Source: Tetragenococcus halophilus subsp. halophilus DSM 20339 (lineage in GTDB: Bacteria > Bacillota > Bacilli > Lactobacillales > Enterococcaceae). From it: a stretch of DNA of 64,000 bases. Under the pieces are notes generated by a model that saw only the letters and a list, made by a program, of their open reading frames with translations, made no database searches and was not told where the DNA came from. A program made the position numbers and the translations under genes. The stretch lies in assembly GCF_003841405.1 (NCBI RefSeq), contig NZ_PXYA01000001.1, forward strand, positions 992,001-1,056,000, given 5' to 3'. This document shows, in pieces, positions 51,659 to 60,492 of this stretch (positions within the stretch are counted from its first letter, which is position 1; every line of letters starts with the position of its first letter).

Positions 51659-52525
51659 TTATTTATGAAAACGATAGCGATACATATCCATTAACCATTC
51701 CACTGTTTCAGGAGCACGATGATCAAAAAATAGGCTTTTACCGATGTCCAGCGTTTCAAGTTCACGCATTTCATCTTCTGTAAGGCTAAAGTCCCAGATG
51801 TTTATATTTTCCTGCATCCGCTCAGCATGAACAGACTTAGGTATAATCACAATATCTTTTTGTGTTAAAAACCGCAGCCCTATTTGTGCAGCCGTTTTCC
51901 CCTATTTTTCTCCAATACTTAACAAAACGGGATGGTGGAAGAAATTGTTTTTCCCTTCGGCTAAAGGTCCCCAAGATTCCATCTGTACCCCATATTGCTT
52001 CATAATTTTTCGCGCTTCTGGTTGTTGATAAAAAACATGGCTTTCCACCTGATTAACCATAGGTACTGTATCAGCAAAAGTAGACAAATCAATCAAACGA
52101 TCTGGGAAAAAGTTGGAAACACCAATAGCACGTATTTTCCCTTCACGATAAAATTCTTCTAAAGCGCGATAACCGCCATAATAATCTCCATAAGCTTGGT
52201 GCATAATTACTAAATCAATGTAATCAACTTGCAATTTTTCCAATGATTCATATAAAGATGCTTTCGTTTGTTCATAACCAGAATTGGTAAAGTCTACTTT
52301 TGTCGTAAGAAAGATGTCTTCTCGCTTAACATCACTTTCAATCATTGCTTCACCAACGGCACGTTCATTTTGATAAGCTTGTGCAGTATCAAGTAAACGA
52401 TAGCCTGTTTCTAACGCTTTTAAGACAACTTGCTTACATTCGCGGTTACTAATTTGATAAACCCCGAAGCCTTCTATTGGCATTTTTACACCATTATTTA
52501 AAGTAACTGTTGGTATATTCGTCAT
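51659..52525 (-). pseudogene. Aldo/keto reductase interrupted by an in-frame amber codon
   Basis: The N-terminal 207 residues (DTAQAYQNE, TTKVDFT, VIMHQAYGD) end at TAG 51902-51904. The same frame then continues without loss: GKTAAQIGLRFLTQKDIVII, PKSVHAERMQENINIWDFSL and on to 51659. The family has EKYGKTAAQ here, so a tyrosine codon TAC or TAT has become TAG by one base. No frame change or deletion. A translated product would lack the cofactor-binding C-terminus. Recent null allele, readthrough or a sequencing error. Confidence 0.88.
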
Positions 52526-52695: not shown

Positions 52696-53325
52696 TTATC
52701 TCGTTAACGTCGAATGGATCAAACTCGCTTCATATACTGGATCTGCGACATTTAAAATGCCACTACCTACAATAACAATATCAGGTTGAAGTGCAATATA
52801 ATCTTCTACTGTTTTACTATTAATGCCACCTGCTACTGCAATCTGTGCTTTTTTAACATATTTTTTCATCTCAATCAGATCTTCAATCGGTGTTCTACCT
52901 GCCTGTTGCTGATCTGCTCCAGTATGAACCGCAATAACATCCACGCCTAATTCTTCTAGTACTGGAATACGTGTAGCAAAGTCTTTTATACAGATCATAT
53001 CTACCATAACTTTGCGTCCTTGTTTTTTAGCTTGTTCTACACATCCGTTGATCGTTAAATCATCTGTAATTCCTAAAACAGTAACGTAATCAGCTCCTAC
53101 ATCATAGGCCAGTTGTGCTTCATAAGCTCCAGCGTCCATAATTTTAGCATCACATAAAATTTCTAATTCAGGAAATTTTCGCTTCATCTGCTCAACCGCT
53201 TTACGTCCTGCGTCAATTAAAAATGGTGTTCCTATTTCCACAATATCAATATACTGCTTTAGCTTATCTACTTGTGTTAATGCTTGTTCTAGACTTAATT
53301 CGTCAATGGCTAGTTGTAATTTCAT
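52696..53325 (-). CDS. hxlA: 3-hexulose-6-phosphate synthase
   Basis: 209 residues, OMP-decarboxylase-superfamily TIM barrel. MKLQLAIDELSLEQAL, the magnesium-site DAKIMDAGAYEA and VAGGINSKTV are diagnostic. Joins formaldehyde and ribulose-5-phosphate to D-arabino-3-hexulose-6-phosphate, or the reverse. Last gene of manA-hxlB-hxlA. Confidence 0.94.
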   Translation of the reverse strand: MKLQLAIDELSLEQALTQVDKLKQYIDIVEIGTPFLIDAGRKAVEQMKRKFPELEILCDAKIMDAGAYEAQLAYDVGADYVTVLGITDDLTINGCVEQAKKQGRKVMVDMICIKDFATRIPVLEELGVDVIAVHTGADQQQAGRTPIEDLIEMKKYVKKAQIAVAGGINSKTVEDYIALQPDIVIVGSGILNVADPVYEASLIHSTLTR

Positions 53326-53343
53326 ATAGCTCCTCCTCTTGTC

Positions 53344-53907
53344 TCATTCTAAATTTGCATGTTTTATAAAAGCTTTATCTGTATCAATTTTATTTTCTTT
53401 AGCTAATTCAACAATAAGGGTATCTCCTAAAACAAGTACAGCTTCTTCAAAAGTACTTCCGCCAGGTAAAATTCCTTTTTTATTTTCTTGGCTTGCTGGT
53501 AATTTATCTGTGTAAGCAGGAATTCGAACGACTTTGTCCGATAAATTAGCTAAAGTTGATTGTTCAAAAACGGTTAGTGTAGTAACCATACCATCGAAAT
53601 CTTTCGCTTTTGAGGCATTAGAAATCAATGAATTTGTTTCTCCTGAAGCACTTGCTAAAAGTAATAAGTCTCCTGAAAGAAAAGCTGGTGTTGTCACATC
53701 TCCTACTACATATACTTCAAACCCAATATGCATAAGACGCATTGCAAAACCTTTTAACATTAATAATGATCTGCCTGCGCCTGCAACAAAAATACGATTA
53801 CTTTTACGAATAACTGTAGTGAGTTCTTCTATTTGGCTTTTATTCATACGTTTTAGTGTATCAGCAAGTTCTATTGCTGCTTGATAAGCAGTATCTACCG
53901 AATTCAT
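53344..53907 (-). CDS. hxlB: 6-phospho-3-hexuloisomerase
   Basis: About 187 residues, single SIS domain: FVAGAGRSLLMLKGFAMRLM, then LASASGETNSL and GGSTFEEAVLVLGD. Converts 3-hexulose-6-phosphate to fructose-6-phosphate. ATG 53907 behind AGGAGG, one base after the manA stop. Upstream of hxlA by 18 bases. Confidence 0.94.
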   Translation of the reverse strand: MNSVDTAYQAAIELADTLKRMNKSQIEELTTVIRKSNRIFVAGAGRSLLMLKGFAMRLMHIGFEVYVVGDVTTPAFLSGDLLLLASASGETNSLISNASKAKDFDGMVTTLTVFEQSTLANLSDKVVRIPAYTDKLPASQENKKGILPGGSTFEEAVLVLGDTLIVELAKENKIDTDKAFIKHANLE

Positions 53908-53908
53908 T

Positions 53909-54865
53909 TTATTTGACCTCCTTTTCTTCATTTTTATAACTAGCAATAAAAGCATCAATATTTCCAGTGATTTTTAATTCACCGAGCCCTTCTGGCACAA
54001 GAATAGTTTCTCCCTTTTTTACCTTTGTGCCACTAATTTCCCCCTTACCTTCAACAATAGTAATAAAAGCAAAACGGTCAATTTCATAATATCCTTGTTC
54101 TTGCACTTTTGTCCTACTTAATGTATAAAGTCCCTGTTCGTCCCAGTAATCGGTAATTTCACAACCATCTTTTAAATAAGAATCATACCAAACAAATCCT
54201 TGTGATGTAACGGGTACAAGCACATTATCAACCACTTTATCAATGTGTAGCTCACGTTTTTGATCTGTTGTTGGTTCTACACGGTCATAATCAAATAGCC
54301 GATAAGTTAAATCTGCATTTCTTGAAATATTATAAGTTAAAACATCGCGTCCGATAGCGTGTAAAGTACCAGCAGGAATATCAATAAAATGATCTTTTTT
54401 GGCTGGTAAGTATTTCAGCAAATCTCCCCATTTTTTGTTATGAGCTAAATAAGCAAATTCTTCTTTTGTTTTTGCGTGATGACCAAATTCGATCTTCCCA
54501 TCTTCTGGTGTATCCAAAATAACCCATGCTTCTGGTTTTCCGCGGGAATTGTCATATTGTAAGGCATACGTATCATCTGGATGTAATTGCACCGATAAAT
54601 CTGCTAAAGGATCTAAAAGATTAACTCGAATAGGTAACTGTTCAGTATCACAGTTAAACCAATCAGGATAATCCTTATAAAGTGCCGATAACGTCATGTC
54701 CGTTCCTTCAACCGGACAATCCGCTCCATTAGGCAAAGCAACAACATTGTAAACCTCTCCCACTGGAAACACATCTGTTTCGTAATTAAATGTTTCCAAT
54801 ATACGTCTGCCGCCCCAAATTCTTGCTTCAAAAAAGGGAAGCACTTTTAAAATTTGTTTTTCCAT
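53909..54865 (-). CDS. manA: Mannose-6-phosphate isomerase, class I
   Basis: About 318 residues. Zinc-enzyme cupin features QLHPDD (metal-binding His) and the later PAGTLHAIGRDV and EGKGEISGTKVKKGE. Interconverts mannose-6-P and fructose-6-P. ATG 54865 after AAAGGA. First gene of the hxl operon and flanked by the AAAACAAAT sites that also face deoR. Confidence 0.93.
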   Translation of the reverse strand: MEKQILKVLPFFEARIWGGRRILETFNYETDVFPVGEVYNVVALPNGADCPVEGTDMTLSALYKDYPDWFNCDTEQLPIRVNLLDPLADLSVQLHPDDTYALQYDNSRGKPEAWVILDTPEDGKIEFGHHAKTKEEFAYLAHNKKWGDLLKYLPAKKDHFIDIPAGTLHAIGRDVLTYNISRNADLTYRLFDYDRVEPTTDQKRELHIDKVVDNVLVPVTSQGFVWYDSYLKDGCEITDYWDEQGLYTLSRTKVQEQGYYEIDRFAFITIVEGKGEISGTKVKKGETILVPEGLGELKITGNIDAFIASYKNEEKEVK

Positions 54866-54985
54866 AGAAAACAAATCCTTTCTGTTTGATTTCGTTTCTA
54901 TTTCAAATTATAAACAGTTGAATTTGTTTTTACAAGTATTTCCAAGAAAAAAATTGCTTTTCACCTGAATAAACCAAAAACAAAT
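54852..54985. promoter_or_regulatory. Inverted AAAACAAAT sites between manA and the DeoR gene
   Basis: ATTTGTTTT (54852-54860) and AAAACAAAT (54868-54876) form a perfect 9-7-9 inverted repeat at the manA start; a second ATTTGTTTT (54922-54930) and AAAACAAAT (54977-54985) lie 46 bases apart further out. Likely operators for the divergent DeoR protein. Confidence 0.65.
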
Positions 54986-54986
54986 A

Positions 54987-54995
54987 TGTTATACT
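54987..54995 (+). promoter_or_regulatory. Extended -10 promoter of the DeoR gene
   Basis: TGTTATACT (TGn plus TATACT) 25 bases before ATG 55020; no good -35. It directly abuts the last AAAACAAAT site. Confidence 0.55.
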
Positions 54996-55019
54996 GGAAT
55001 AAAAGTGAGGGATGTAACG

Positions 55020-55775
55020 ATGAAACTAACAAGTGATGAAAGGAAAAATCGTATTTTACATGAAGTCATTACAAAAAATAAAGTAGGTATAAACGCTTTA
55101 GCTGATGAATTTGGTGTTACTACTGAAACGATTCGTAAAGATGTTCATTTTTTACATAAAAAAAATATTATTTCTAAAAAGCATGGCTATGTCACTTTAG
55201 CGAATACGTTTTTCGAAAATGAATTTACTACAAAAGAAAACCAACAACTGACAGAAAAAATTCATTTAGCCGAGGCCGCATTGAAATTTATTCCTGAAAA
55301 TTCAGCTGTCTTTCTAGATACAAGTACCACTGTCTTACAATTAGCCAAATTGCTTATCATGAGAAGCGATCTAACAATTATTACCAATTCTTTGCGTATT
55401 GCGCAAGTTTTGTCTAATTCTGAAAACCAAGTTCTCCTTACCGGCGGTTCTTACCGAAAAAAAAGTAATTCTTATGTGGGAAATTGGGCATTAAATGCCA
55501 TCAGTTCATTAAATGTAGACGTCGCCTTTATTGGGTGTGACGGTTTTTCAGAAACTGGTCCTACGATTCGTTCCTATCAAGAATTGGAAATCAAAAAAGC
55601 AATTGCAGATCATAGTAAAAAGAATATTATCTTATGTGATAGTTCAAAAGTATTACAAGAAGGGCTATATACTTTCATTCCTTATGAAGAAATAGATATG
55701 ATCGTTACAGATAGGAAATTAGGAGAAAACGAAAGAGAGAAATTTCCGGAAGACATTTTTTTCTTTTCGAGTTGA
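55020..55775 (+). CDS. DeoR family transcriptional regulator of the manA-hxlBA operon
   Basis: About 251 residues. DeoR-type HTH (KVGINALADEFGVTTETIRK, residues about 18-38) and the sugar-phosphate sensing domain (FLDTSTTVLQLAKLL, GGSYRKKSNSYVG, FIGCDGFSETGPTIRS). The start is ATG 55020 behind GAGGG; GTG 55005 is less likely. Divergent from manA-hxlB-hxlA, with AAAACAAAT sites in between, so it probably represses them until a sugar phosphate binds. Confidence 0.9.
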   Translation: MKLTSDERKNRILHEVITKNKVGINALADEFGVTTETIRKDVHFLHKKNIISKKHGYVTLANTFFENEFTTKENQQLTEKIHLAEAALKFIPENSAVFLDTSTTVLQLAKLLIMRSDLTIITNSLRIAQVLSNSENQVLLTGGSYRKKSNSYVGNWALNAISSLNVDVAFIGCDGFSETGPTIRSYQELEIKKAIADHSKKNIILCDSSKVLQEGLYTFIPYEEIDMIVTDRKLGENEREKFPEDIFFFSS

Positions 55776-55876: not shown

Positions 55877-57235
55877 TTATTCTAATGTAGCAACAACGGA
55901 TTGACATTTTTCTGCCATATCATGAGCTAACTTTGCTGAAAGACCGACGTAGTTTTCGGGTTTTAGCATTTCTAATAATTCTTCTTCTGTAAAAGACTGG
56001 CGAACGGTTTGATTGGCTAACAAAACTTCCCGATAGCTTTTCTCTGACGTTTCTGCTTCAATAGCTAATTCATAAATTAATTCATGTGCTTGGTCTTTTC
56101 CGATTCGATTAGCAAAGTACATCATAATATATTCGCTATTATCTATTCCTTGGTTAATATTGGCATTTTGCAACATTTGCTTTCTATTAACCGTCAAAGT
56201 ACGAGTTAATTCTTCCGCACGCATTAATATTTCTGTCATTAACTCTAATGATTCTGTTATCAGCCCATCAAATAACATATTACTCGTACTATCTGCTTCA
56301 AAAGGCCGCGCAGCAGAAGCGTAACCTGCTGAAGTTAAACTGTATAACTTTTGTGCGTTCGCGATAATCCCTTTAGATAACTTAGGATTAATTTTGTGTG
56401 GCATTGTACTGCTTCCAACAGTCCCTTTACTAAAACCTTCAGAAACTTCCGCAAATTCTTCAATAGAAGTTTGAAATACTTCTTCTGCAATTTTGTGGAG
56501 ATTATTTGCCAACAAAGCTAAACAATTAATATATTCAATTTTTTGAGAACTAATATTTCTTGAAGGAATTTCCATTGCAGGCATACCTAGAAGTTCTGCT
56601 ACTTTATTTTGTACCTGTATACCAACTTCTCCAGTGGAATTAAATGCACCTACAGCTCCGCCCATCATGGTAGTGAAAATTCTTTTTTCTACCTCTTGCA
56701 TACGTTCTAAAGACATCAATAATTCAGAAATCCAAGTCGCGACTTTATAACCGTAAGTAATCGGAATGGCATGTTTTCCATGGGTTCTTCCTGGCACTAC
56801 AGTATCTGCTTCTTTTTCAGCTAAGTCTGCTAAGTTTGCTAAAATATCTTTGACAAAAGATAAAAACCTTTCGTGTACCTTTTTAGCGGTCAAGTTTTGC
56901 GCCGTTTGTTGGATATTTTGCGTTGTTGCGCCGAAATGGATATATTTCCCTGTTTCTTTACCACATGCTAGTACAAAAACTTTTAAAAAGGGCACAAATC
57001 CATGTCCTACCTTTTGATAAATTTCATCCATTTTTTCGAAATCTAAGTTTTCTACTTTAGCTCGTTTAACAATTTTTTTTGCTTCTTCTTCAGGGATAAC
57101 TGCTAATTCGCCCTGTGCTTGTGCTAAAGCTGCTTCTATATCTAACCAAGATTGGTATTTCGCACGACTATTTAGCAGTTTCCTAATTCCTCTATCATCA
57201 AGTGTTTTACTTTTTGAATCATACAATGCACTCAT
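55877..57235 (-). CDS. Adenylosuccinate-lyase-superfamily enzyme of unknown substrate, PTS linked
   Basis: 452 residues. Fumarase/aspartase superfamily: His100 in YIHFGATTQNIQQTAQ, catalytic His152 in GRTHGKHAIPITYG, and the signature loop GSSTMPHKINP (274-284). PurB has TSxDVxDTA in the first region; here the ribose/phosphate-binding positions are TTQNIQQTA. So it is unlikely to be the purine enzyme and more likely a beta-elimination lyase that releases fumarate or a related acid. It follows a PTS permease gene after 8 bases. Substrate unknown. Confidence 0.85.
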   Translation of the reverse strand: MSALYDSKSKTLDDRGIRKLLNSRAKYQSWLDIEAALAQAQGELAVIPEEEAKKIVKRAKVENLDFEKMDEIYQKVGHGFVPFLKVFVLACGKETGKYIHFGATTQNIQQTAQNLTAKKVHERFLSFVKDILANLADLAEKEADTVVPGRTHGKHAIPITYGYKVATWISELLMSLERMQEVEKRIFTTMMGGAVGAFNSTGEVGIQVQNKVAELLGMPAMEIPSRNISSQKIEYINCLALLANNLHKIAEEVFQTSIEEFAEVSEGFSKGTVGSSTMPHKINPKLSKGIIANAQKLYSLTSAGYASAARPFEADSTSNMLFDGLITESLELMTEILMRAEELTRTLTVNRKQMLQNANINQGIDNSEYIMMYFANRIGKDQAHELIYELAIEAETSEKSYREVLLANQTVRQSFTEEELLEMLKPENYVGLSAKLAHDMAEKCQSVVATLE

Positions 57236-57243
57236 CTTTTCAC

Positions 57244-58806
57244 CTATTCTTTTTTCATTTCATCGTCGACAGCATTTCTAACGAATTCTACATAAGGACC
57301 AAATACAATATGAATATGATTTTTTTGTGGAAAAAAGACTCCGGATGCGCCAGATCCTTTTACCGCTTCTACATCCACTTGATCTTGATCTTTTAAGTCA
57401 ATTCTTAAGCGAGAGACACAATTATCGATATTTTTAATATTTTCTTTCCCACCTAGACCAGCAAGAACAACACCAGCCACTTCATCATACTTTTTCTCTG
57501 CTAATAATGTATTACTTTTTAACCCTTTTTCACGACCTAATGTTTCTAAATTAAATTTCCTAATCGCATATTTAAAAACAAAATAAAAGACCACGAAGTT
57601 AACTAATCCAAGTAGAACTAAATTTAACCAATTGGTGTTTTCATACATTAAACCAAAGATACCAAAATCAAAAATGGAGCCTCGAATGTAGCCGATACCT
57701 ACATTTAAAAAGTTAAGTGGAATCGTCATTACACCACATAATACAGCGTAAACAATAAATAGCTGTGGTGCAATAAATAAGAAAGAAAACTCTAAAGGTT
57801 CTGTAATATTACCTAGAAATGCGGTTAACACGACCGTTAATATGGCACCTTTGGCAAGTTTTTTATTGTCTTTAAATGCCGTATGATACATGGCCAAACC
57901 AATCGCTGGTACGCGAAACAAAGTAGTTAACATTTGCCCACTAGCTAGATATTTGAACAAGTCGGGCGCCATCCTCCAAGCAGGGTTGTCAGGACCTAAA
58001 TCAAATAATACTTTATTTGTCGCATTCAAAATTCCGATATATTGTTGACCATCAATCATATATACGCCACCAGCTTCGGTAAAACGTACGATAGAAGCTA
58101 AAACATGATGAAGACCAAATGGAATCAAAGCTCTATGAGCAAACCAATAAGCACCTACACCAAATACATCATTTAGAAATACTGGAGAGATAAACAGTAA
58201 GAACCTAGTAAACAACCCCCATATAATTGGAACAATTAGCCCAATCGGAATCATAAAGAAGAACGTAGCCATTGGAGGGAACTTCTTGCCTCCAAAAAAG
58301 GCAAAAGCTAAAGGAAGCTCTGTTTTATAGAATTTATCCGTACAATAAGCGGCAACTAAACCAGCAATAATACCTCCAGCTGCATCCAACTTAAGCGTTT
58401 GGATTCCTAATACAATACCTTGTCCTGCTTCAGCCATTGATTGTTCATCTACTAAGGCTCCTGTTAACGTTAAGTATACATTGACCACAATCAGTAAAGT
58501 AACATAACCTAAAACAGAGGAAAACACAGCAATCCCTTTGTCAACTTTTGACATCCCATAGGCGACCCCCATCGCAAACAGTAAAGGGATGTTATCAAAT
58601 ATTACGCCCGTGATAGACTGTAAACTATTTAAAATAGCTTGAACTGTTGAATTCCCTAACCACGAAACATTTTCGATCATATAGCTTTGGGTTAAAGCAC
58701 CCGTTAACCCCATTACCATACCAATAGGTGCCATTACACCAATAGGTAACAATAAAGAACGGCCAAATTTTTGTATTCCGTCTTTCATTTTCTCCTTCAC
58801 TTCCAT
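57244..58806 (-). CDS. PTS transporter subunit IIBC, glucose/maltose superfamily
   Basis: 520 residues. EIIC domain (about 1-415), with the GNITEPLEF motif at 332-340 and IPFGLHHVL, and a C-terminal EIIB domain (about 440-520) with the phosphorylated Cys463 in NIDNCVSRLRIDLKD. No EIIA, so a shared EIIA-Glc is needed. Imports and phosphorylates a substrate while the co-transcribed lyase acts on the product. The lyase and its PRD-like regulator suggest a specific unknown sugar derivative. Confidence 0.9.
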   Translation of the reverse strand: MEVKEKMKDGIQKFGRSLLLPIGVMAPIGMVMGLTGALTQSYMIENVSWLGNSTVQAILNSLQSITGVIFDNIPLLFAMGVAYGMSKVDKGIAVFSSVLGYVTLLIVVNVYLTLTGALVDEQSMAEAGQGIVLGIQTLKLDAAGGIIAGLVAAYCTDKFYKTELPLAFAFFGGKKFPPMATFFFMIPIGLIVPIIWGLFTRFLLFISPVFLNDVFGVGAYWFAHRALIPFGLHHVLASIVRFTEAGGVYMIDGQQYIGILNATNKVLFDLGPDNPAWRMAPDLFKYLASGQMLTTLFRVPAIGLAMYHTAFKDNKKLAKGAILTVVLTAFLGNITEPLEFSFLFIAPQLFIVYAVLCGVMTIPLNFLNVGIGYIRGSIFDFGIFGLMYENTNWLNLVLLGLVNFVVFYFVFKYAIRKFNLETLGREKGLKSNTLLAEKKYDEVAGVVLAGLGGKENIKNIDNCVSRLRIDLKDQDQVDVEAVKGSGASGVFFPQKNHIHIVFGPYVEFVRNAVDDEMKKE

Positions 58807-58839
58807 TTCCTTCTAATTTATGATAACTTCAGTTTAGTT

Positions 58840-58853
58840 AGAAATCGCTTTCG
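58840..58853. promoter_or_regulatory. cre-like site before the PTS gene
   Basis: AGAAATCGCTTTCG has the palindromic core GAAATCGCTTTC of CcpA sites (consensus TGnAAnCGnWnnCW), with mismatches at both outer bases. Lies 34-47 bases before the PTS start. Confidence 0.35.
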
Positions 58854-58944
58854 CTACAAGGTTCGTTTTTGTCTTTCCTGCGTTTCAATAAGGAACCATT
58901 AGCTACTTGCAAAAAATGCTATACTAAACTCAGGAGTTGATTTT

Positions 58945-60492
58945 ATGACAGTTAGTTCTTTTGCATTATATTTAGGAAATCGAATTCAAGAAGCCCAACA
59001 AATAACCCTTAATCAATTGTCCATTAAAACAGGGCGCTCTGTTGCTACTATTTGTCGAACAGTTCACTCCTTAAACGAATGTCTTCAACCGTCTTTACAA
59101 TTTGTAGTAACCGAATCAAAAATAATAAACCAAATGAGTTATGATGCGTTTGTTTCTTTTATTCAAGGTTTGTCCATTAATGATTTTTCTCCCGCTTGGA
59201 AAGAACGTCTCGAACTATTATACATTATTACTATGATCGATAATAAAGCCAATTTAACAAAGCTTTACCAAACTCTTGAAATTAGTCAATCAACAAAGAA
59301 AAAGGACCGTGCGACTTTTTCAAAAGAACTTGAAAAAGGTCAATTATCTCTTCTTTCTTTAAGAGGAAAAGGAGTCACTATCGTTGGTGACGAGCTTACT
59401 TTACGCATAAAAACTGCACAAATTCTAAGCCAGGTTATTGAACTTAACGAAGAGAATCAGATTATTTCTCGGCAAGCAAACAATCCAGTTCAGCAACTTA
59501 TATATCAATATGCAAAAAATCTCTTAAAAAAAGACAGCAATAAACAGCGTTTAAATAACTTATTACGTGAGTATCAATTATCTTTTAATTATACTTCAAT
59601 GAAATTTCTGTATGTCTATTATTTCATCAGCCTACATAGAACCGAAAATAATTATTTTATTACAAAAAAACATGCGTCTCCAGTAAAAATTCAAACTTTT
59701 TCTTTATTTAACCAAGCTGAAGAAAACTTTTCCTTTAGTAATGTCTTAGCAAGTCTAGATAACAATGGAGAAAACTTTTATCCAAAAGATGAACTTGTCA
59801 TTAGTATACGTAAACAATTTGTACAATATGTTGAAGAGCGTATTATTACTACCTTTTATTCTCGGGAAGAACTAGATCAAGAGATTGAACAGTATTTGTA
59901 CAAATGTCTTGTACGCAATTTTTTAGATTATGACTTTTATGACAATAAATTGGACGACGTAAAAAAAGAATTTTCTTTTTTATACCAGCTAGTGGACTAT
60001 TGTTACCAAGAGTATCTGCCAAGGGGTATCAAACTAGACCAATATCAGCTCAGTACGTTAACCTTACTTTTTAGAAATCATGTATTAAAAAACAAAATTG
60101 CTGGTAGAAATCTAAAAAAAGTTGTCGTTATTACAAATTCGGCCAAAGAAAAGGGAAATTTCTTTTCTCAACAATTGGTTTATTTTTTTGACACCAAAGT
60201 AATAGCTATTTTGAATATTAATGAAATCTACCAATTGAAAAATTTAAAGTACGATAATTTAATTACTTTTTCCAACCGGATCTCTACTATTTTAGACGAA
60301 AATGGTTTCTCAAACATTAAGGTAAATTATTACTTTCATTCAGAAGACATTGAATACTTAGCAAAACTAAACTTTTCTTATAACTTTCAAAGAAAAATAA
60401 TTACTGAACAGTTCGTAAACGAAATCAAAGAAATTTCAGCTGAGAACCTAACTAGCTATTTAAAAGAGCATTATGCTAATTTTTTTGTTTAA
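58945..60492 (+). CDS. BglG/Mga-like transcriptional regulator of the PTS-lyase operon
   Basis: 515 residues. N-terminal HTH (LNQLSIKTGRSVATICRTV, about 23-41), a second helical region, then long PRD-like helices and a C-terminal EIIB-like segment (VVVITNSAKEKGNFFSQQLV). This is the layout of PTS-regulated activators such as MtlR/LicR or Mga-like proteins. It diverges from the PTS-lyase pair with 138 bases between, so it is expected to control it. TGCTATACT near the start is a possible extended -10. Phosphorylation histidines not certain. Confidence 0.8.
   Translation: MTVSSFALYLGNRIQEAQQITLNQLSIKTGRSVATICRTVHSLNECLQPSLQFVVTESKIINQMSYDAFVSFIQGLSINDFSPAWKERLELLYIITMIDNKANLTKLYQTLEISQSTKKKDRATFSKELEKGQLSLLSLRGKGVTIVGDELTLRIKTAQILSQVIELNEENQIISRQANNPVQQLIYQYAKNLLKKDSNKQRLNNLLREYQLSFNYTSMKFLYVYYFISLHRTENNYFITKKHASPVKIQTFSLFNQAEENFSFSNVLASLDNNGENFYPKDELVISIRKQFVQYVEERIITTFYSREELDQEIEQYLYKCLVRNFLDYDFYDNKLDDVKKEFSFLYQLVDYCYQEYLPRGIKLDQYQLSTLTLLFRNHVLKNKIAGRNLKKVVVITNSAKEKGNFFSQQLVYFFDTKVIAILNINEIYQLKNLKYDNLITFSNRISTILDENGFSNIKVNYYFHSEDIEYLAKLNFSYNFQRKIITEQFVNEIKEISAENLTSYLKEHYANFFV

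Follow-up and report, generated by a model that had tools for sequence, protein, structure and literature searches.

We describe here a pair of adjoining genes, one for a IIBC permease of the phosphotransferase system (PTS) and one for a lyase of the aspartase/fumarase superfamily, found in a stretch of 64,000 nucleotides from Tetragenococcus halophilus subsp. halophilus DSM 20339 (contig NZ_PXYA01000001.1, positions 992,001 to 1,056,000; the window, whose own numbering is used below). On balance, we favour the view that the two genes form a catabolic module for a conjugate between an N-acetylhexosamine, most likely N-acetylglucosamine (GlcNAc), and a malate-like C4 acid, with GlcNAc-alpha-L-malate as lead substrate and with release of fumarate. 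The pair is apparently undescribed, as no account of such a PTS-lyase module or pathway was found in the literature searched (titles and abstract starts of open-licence papers). The locus comprises:

55877 to 57235, minus strand: lyase gene, 452 amino acids, aspartase/fumarase superfamily, Pfam Lyase_1 and ADSL_C domains
57244 to 58806, minus strand: PTS IIBC permease gene, 520 amino acids, glucose/MalX/NagE family, Pfam PTS_EIIC and PTS_EIIB domains, EIIB Cys463
58840 to 58853, minus strand: putative catabolite-repression (cre) site, CGAAAGCGATTTCT, upstream of the PTS gene, one mismatch to the consensus
58945 to 60492, plus strand: divergent Mga-like transcription regulator gene, 515 amino acids, weak Pfam Mga helix-turn-helix
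55005 to 55775, strand opposite to that of the lyase: DeoR-type regulator gene, on the far side of the lyase from the PTS gene

An earlier note, made from the letters of the window, had placed a PTS gene with Cys463 and a lyase 8 bases apart and diverging from a regulator, and its coordinates and motifs hold: 8 bases separate the PTS stop from the lyase start and, since the DeoR-type regulator beyond the lyase lies on the opposite strand, the operon in the window has two genes. The note had also proposed to follow the pair through other genomes. Scanning one genome per species (84,980 species) with the lyase motifs [VI]GHGFVPF and TTQNIQQ[TS], we found 131 relatives and retained the best 80, leaving out 51; relatives with neither motif are missed, and conservation of these two motifs is partly by construction. 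In 71 of the 80, the gene immediately upstream of the lyase is that of the PTS, and a PTS fragment holds the same place in five more, at a contig end (L062, L081, L093), split (L030) or, by reading, next to transposase-like open reading frames (ORFs; L039). Exceptions are three Lactobacillaceae loci (L028, L075, L096), whose lyase comes with a PTS over the alpha-glucoside model cut-off, and L068, where no PTS was seen at the lyase locus. Because these relatives were selected by the lyase alone, the adjacency is more than chance. Broken copies of the module were seen as well, namely in Enterococcus dispar (L030), with PTS gene and regulator in pieces, and in L012, with a shortened lyase and pieces of the regulator.

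Clues to the products come from the larger operons of relatives, an operon being taken as same-strand ORFs with gaps below 250 bases. Neighbour clusters were named from representatives with further members checked, many clusters being left without identification. A fumarase is encoded in the operon at 7 of the 80 loci (FumC type in L031, L032, L038, L084, L087 and L092, two-subunit alpha plus beta Fe-S type in L093) and a malic enzyme at four (L038, L087, L092, L093), the family having been checked for all seven and all four. On the sugar side, the operon includes a NagA-like deacetylase at 16 loci (plus a contig-end fragment in L086), a ChbG-type deacetylase at four and, upstream in L026, a NagB over its cut-off; taken together, such GlcNAc-phosphate enzymes mark 20 of the 80 loci. 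Both fumarate and N-acetyl-sugar enzymes meet at five (L032, L038, L084, L092, L093). Genes for IIA-Glc occur at 17 loci and for glycoside hydrolases of family GH4 in 11 operons, the one GH4 compared (L086) having 6-phospho-alpha-glucosidases as its nearest solved relatives. Three operons run as follows:

L092: PTS-lyase-ChbG-malic enzyme-FumC
L087: PTS-lyase-malic enzyme-FumC-RpiR
L093: PTS(fragment)-lyase-IIA-GH4-NagA-malic enzyme-fumarase alpha-beta

When in-operon and other ORFs of the same 80 loci were counted (ORFs below 150 amino acids and the lyase and PTS clusters having been dropped beforehand), NagA made up 16 of 140 in-operon ORFs versus 0 of 751 elsewhere. Malic enzyme was found 4 times inside versus 0 outside, fumarase 7 versus 4 (all four outside ones in Morganella), ChbG 4 versus 2 and GH4 11 versus 5, enrichments whose P values are only a guide, the rows being related. 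On the lyase tree (83 rows), NagA requires at least 5 changes, fumarase 4 and malic enzyme, ChbG and GH4 3 each; the companion associations therefore seem to have been gained, or lost, more than once. The earlier reading of fumarate and an aminosugar phosphate as products is probably right, the former being backed by the fumarases and malic enzymes and the latter by the 20 loci with NagA-like, ChbG-like or NagB genes.

The substrate named in the earlier note has fared less well. An Amadori compound of aspartate (fructosyl-aspartate), cleaved to fumarate and an amino-deoxy-fructose phosphate, would suit the fumarase and malic-enzyme neighbours, and C-N lyases are common in the aspartase/fumarase superfamily; the companions, however, are enzymes of GlcNAc-phosphate and alpha-glucoside type, and no deglycase is among the neighbour clusters identified (not all were), so that we give this substrate little credence. 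The Amadori-compound systems fra and frl resemble the module in importing a sugar-amino-acid conjugate that is then split inside the cell, but the module has a lyase in place of their kinase, deglycase or amidase. Similarly improbable to our minds is a glycoprotein-derived glyco-amino acid such as GlcNAc-asparagine, with the lyase as an ammonia lyase or amide-side enzyme. Several carriers, by record title, belong to genera associated with the gut or with animals, as such a diet would suggest. A published study gives GlcNAc-asparagine as a bacterial substrate, though by a route of major facilitator superfamily permease, glycosylasparaginase and sugar kinase (PMC6960285). Moreover, one lyase would not free the sugar from such a compound, and the nearest solved relatives of the L086 GH4 are alpha, not beta, enzymes.

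The lyase itself falls within the superfamily (Pfam Lyase_1, 131 bits against a cut-off of 27), contains TTQNIQQTA, GRTHG and GSSTMPHKINP, and is 92% identical to its counterpart in T. solitarius (L021) and 86% to that in T. halophilus L022. The catalytic THG and SSTMPxKxNP motifs are kept in 85 of 85 aligned lyase rows, from relatives picked by two other motifs. Nineteen NCBIfam models match the window lyase, each below its own cut-off. With the PurB model TIGR00928 it reaches 272.3 bits where 326.2 are called for, in agreement with the note's view that it is not the housekeeping PurB; a separate purB sits elsewhere in the genome, adjoining a gene that reads as PurK-like, and an ArgH-like and a FumC-type lyase are encoded there too. 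Public records annotate such lyases as adenylosuccinate lyase family, and the module lyase does have the fold family, the ADSL_C domain and the THG and SS-MPHK-NP motifs in common with PurB. In alignment with the genome's own PurB, however, neither the N-terminal RY nor the HERDISHSS segment is found in it, and we take the RY, TSxDVxDTA and HERDxSHSS segments of PurB to be those that bind AMP. Given the low score, the separate purB, the changed AMP-site segments and a pair kept across phyla, identity with PurB was rejected, and an adenylosuccinate lyase merely hitch-hiking beside a PTS is extremely improbable.

TTQNIQQTA, which the note had read against PurB only, is indeed present; TTQ is common to the window lyase, 3c8t, trans-aconitate decarboxylase and a lyase resembling S-(2-succino) lyase (2SL; L013). 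NIQQ, in turn, recurs in L016, a relative linked to an ATP-binding cassette (ABC) transporter. Among solved proteins, the closest in sequence are 3c8t (whose entry bears the name fumarate lyase), trans-aconitate decarboxylase 1, PurB and CMLE, and the models for CMLE and XcbD give matches that fall far short of the respective cut-offs. This could speak for a lyase that does not form fumarate at all (a cycloisomerase or decarboxylase, for example) and whose fumarase neighbours are coincidental, yet with fumarase in 7 of 80 operons through at least 4 changes on the tree, and malic enzyme in four, we think that very unlikely.

According to PMC9706529, 2SL of yxe-type operons releases fumarate from a succinyl conjugate, and it belongs to the same superfamily as the module lyase. 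The 2SL-like L013, a distant relative from the same bacterial family as the window and 32% identical to its lyase, lies in a yxe-type operon (MmgE/PrpD gene, GNAT acetyltransferase, solute-binding protein, no PTS), a setting typical of 2SL lyases and a point in favour of fumarate release, and reads TTQDIVDT where the module has TTQNIQQ[TS]. Membership in 2SL was rejected because the module has a PTS upstream rather than a yxe-type operon, a different motif and a place on the tree apart from L013. Positions near-constant in module lyases and different in all six other homologues include K8, G77, G79, F80, K85, T256, K288, S316, N366 and D381, and the three lysines among these would, judging from the alignment, fit a phosphate site.

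The window PTS has EIIC and EIIB domains with the phosphorylatable Cys463 and belongs to the glucose-superfamily IIBC proteins, and the EIIB cysteine is found in 72 of 72 lyase-adjoining PTS proteins longer than 450 amino acids (59 by a sequence pattern, 13 more among the proteins that the pattern missed). PTS permeases of the glucose family phosphorylate their sugars at C6, and a PTS-phosphorylated conjugate is the likely substrate of the lyase. Scores with named subfamilies all stay below their cut-offs (MalX 380 of 632, GlcB 333 of 592, NagE 307 of 553 bits), the best being MalX. This last point, together with a different PTS beside the Lactobacillaceae lyases (over the alpha-glucoside cut-off in L028, L075 and L096 and so annotated in L014) and with CDMP-motif GH4 genes but no NagA at these same loci, would agree with a simple alpha-glucosyl malate, or some other conjugate of a C4 acid with a non-acetylated sugar, being split to glucose-6-phosphate and fumarate. 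We consider this rather unlikely, as it leaves the NagA-like, ChbG-like or NagB genes at 20 of the 80 loci unexplained; its weight against a GlcNAc conjugate is raised by the alpha-glucoside type of the Lactobacillaceae PTS and by several companions scoring just below their cut-offs.

GH4 motifs divide by lineage, with CDQP in Lachnospiraceae and other Clostridia, Erysipelotrichaceae and Photobacterium, and CDMP in Lactobacillaceae and Shouchella; the CDQP enzymes (L093 2226-3554, L086 10380-11714 and others) may represent a new 6-phospho-alpha-glycosidase specificity. As for NagA, all 16 operon proteins keep H[LM]EGP, GH[ST], TH, HHR and [TS]DC, and 15 of the 16 have FSGM or YSGM (SAM in L098), where four solved NagA proteins, once aligned, have N[AG][ML] and TD[SA]. 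These proteins (L076 11821-13026 and 15 others) form a NagA-like subfamily tied to the module, with shared letters unlike those of solved NagA. Judged by such motifs, the operon NagA-like and GH4 companions look specialised.

To turn to the pathway we favour, the permease would import the GlcNAc-C4-acid conjugate and phosphorylate its sugar at C6, and the lyase would then hold the C4 dicarboxylate through T104-T105, S275-S276, K281 and N283, which we take to be the dicarboxylate-binding residues of the superfamily. Removal of the proton at the beta carbon, and expulsion of the sugar oxygen with H152 as acid, would yield fumarate and the free sugar phosphate, that is GlcNAc-6-phosphate, or glucosamine-6-phosphate where a deacetylase acts first. 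The sugar would enter glycolysis via NagA and NagB, and fumarate would become pyruvate via fumarase and malic enzyme. As an O-linked malate conjugate directly yields GlcNAc-6-phosphate, one lyase would be enough. A known counterpart is the pair of MurP, a PTS permease, and MurQ, the N-acetylmuramic acid 6-phosphate etherase, a lactyl-ether lyase of the SIS fold with MurR as regulator: there, too, a PTS IIBC protein has as its neighbour an enzyme that acts inside the cell and, by elimination of an acid, turns a phosphorylated sugar into GlcNAc-6-phosphate, as the module may do by analogy. RpiR/MurR-type regulators, moreover, lie within 6 kb of the lyase in 37 of the 80 relatives. Different from SIS-fold MurQ, however, the module enzyme is a Lyase_1 protein of the aspartase/fumarase superfamily, and its acid would have four carbons.

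GlcNAc-alpha-L-malate is our lead because it fits all three clues, namely N-acetylglucosamine, a C4 acid and the alpha-type GH4. It is alpha-linked and the first intermediate of bacillithiol synthesis, and we know of no other natural glycoside of GlcNAc with a C4 acid; BshA-C are, to our knowledge, unrelated to the PTS-lyase module. In PMC4101496, GlcNAc-malate and glucosamine-malate are intermediates of bacillithiol synthesis, and GlcNAc-malate is a real metabolite. These would be the conjugates that the module cleaves, and no PTS-lyase catabolic route was found in the open-licence literature searched. Tentatively, and with clearly less confidence than in the module as such, we propose catabolism of the bacillithiol core: the PTS would take in GlcNAc-alpha-malate or glucosamine-malate as the 6-phosphate, a new GlcNAc-6-phosphate-malate lyase would split the glycoside on its aglycone side by beta-elimination, and the NagA-like, ChbG-like and CDQP GH4 proteins would be specialised partners, the GH4 possibly as 6-phospho-alpha-N-acetylglucosaminidase.

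With GlcNAc-6-phosphate or glucosamine-6-phosphate as the proposed sugar product, carriers are expected to need nagA and nagB. Across 40 carrier genomes (the window's own and 39 from among the 80 loci), nagA scored over its cut-off in 40 of 40, compared with 69 of 149 genomes sampled from the window's phylum; the sample is confined to that phylum while the carriers include others, and the contrast may be slightly too large, at most 12 candidates per genome having been scored in the sample and nearly all in the carriers. A nagB match was found in 40 of 40 carriers, in 35 of them over the cut-off, and the window genome holds nagA, nagB, a malic-enzyme gene and the FumC-type lyase.

Several points nonetheless weigh against a GlcNAc-C4-acid module. 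The nagA contrast is confounded by ancestry, and the window operon is made up of PTS and lyase alone. At 60 of the 80 loci the operon has no N-acetyl-sugar enzyme and at 73 no fumarase, although in some cases (L071 and L096, for example) the contig breaks off near the lyase. Among six full-length operon NagA proteins, L084, L093 and L097 score just over the nagA cut-off and L076, L091 and L098 just under it, and the three ChbG-type proteins scanned are all under theirs (195-220 of 227). GH4, present in 11 of the 80 operons, would make the lyase redundant if it hydrolysed the same glycoside, and the lyase reaction is deduced from gene context and sequence rather than from biochemistry. As for bacillithiol, a simple motif screen, which can miss them, found no LmbE-type (BshB/Bca) ORFs beside the pair. 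Carriers that used bacillithiol of their own should be able to make it; 10 of the 40 gave a bshC match, the window genome not being among them, and in most carriers a bacillithiol-type substrate would therefore have to come from outside. These screens neither support nor exclude the bacillithiol link, which, with no bacillithiol gene as a neighbour and bshC in 10 of 40 carriers, is one of chemistry; hence our calling GlcNAc-alpha-L-malate a chemical guess.

By record title, carriers range over Bacilli, Clostridia, Erysipelotrichaceae, Enterobacterales, Vibrio, Photobacterium, Pasteurella and one actinobacterium (Tessaracoccus, L025), and on a Klebsiella plasmid (L015) the PTS, lyase and regulator genes are arranged as in the window. 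Of 105 genomes from the window's family, 9 gave a match at the limit applied, 8 with the module lyase (shortened in one, G057, L012) and one with the 2SL-like L013; of the 9 same-genus genomes listed, that of the window among them, 4 have the lyase. In a phylum-wide sample, with the limit set to E 1e-120 and no more than four candidates per genome scored in the rows given, 1 of 398 genomes matched, that of the window itself, and the Citrobacter pair, compared by megablast with the E. coli collection, had no match in the near mode used, which would miss diverged copies. Patchy presence in family and genus, a plasmid copy and spread across phyla together mark it as an accessory, mobile module. 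On a tree by a quick method and with long outgroup branches, the 85 lyase rows of the module form one clade (SH-aLRT 99), outside which fall Cereibacter and rhizobial relatives, homologue L020, the 2SL-like L013 and PurB. The rhizobial relatives adjoin a gene for a family-5 solute-binding protein, and the one on a Cereibacter plasmid (L016, 2111-9383; 44% identity) adjoins a dipeptide-type ABC transporter, with another protein of the lyase family, a class II fumarase and genes of a tripartite ATP-independent periplasmic transporter close by, a PTS-free cousin system. Two records call for caution: bshC occurs in the genome of L037 (recorded as Roseburia sp. 1XD42-34), whose lyase lies near Bacillaceae rows on the tree and whose organism name may be wrong, while L017, a 4.08 Mb Proteus mirabilis record labelled plasmid, is probably a chromosome.

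Regarding control, the note's BglG/Mga-like, PRD-like regulator stands as Mga-like, the Mga helix-turn-helix (27.4 bits against a cut-off of 21.1, a weak match) being its sole Pfam domain; the PRD part is not borne out, a Pfam search having found no PRD domain. A homologue on the Klebsiella plasmid, 29% identical, is nevertheless annotated as PRD domain-containing, and 35 of the 80 relatives have a homologue no more than 6 kb from the lyase. The candidate cre site, matched to what we take to be the cre consensus, is conserved at 13 of its 14 bases in T. solitarius L021 and T. halophilus L022; the candidate is weakened by the window-wide count of cre-like sites, 4 seen against 11.4 expected by chance. 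Further along the window, two enzymes of the ribulose monophosphate route, HxlA and HxlB (both over their NCBIfam cut-offs), and a ManA-like isomerase form one minus-strand run that diverges from the DeoR-type regulator (52696-55775 with the latter), a combination that is unusual among lactic acid bacteria. A 207-amino-acid ORF at 51902-52525 reads like an aldo-keto reductase and may be shortened, since the aldo-keto reductases adjoining the lyase in L021 and L022 have 288-295 amino acids.

If our view of the PTS-lyase pair is true, both the enzyme reaction and the class of PTS nutrient, sugar-C4-acid conjugates, would be new, at the 80 loci kept and probably at others, in several phyla, and genes that now bear the name adenylosuccinate lyase would be re-labelled. 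Should the substrate be GlcNAc-malate, the module would provide a catabolic route for the bacillithiol core, with bacteria feeding on each other's redox thiol.

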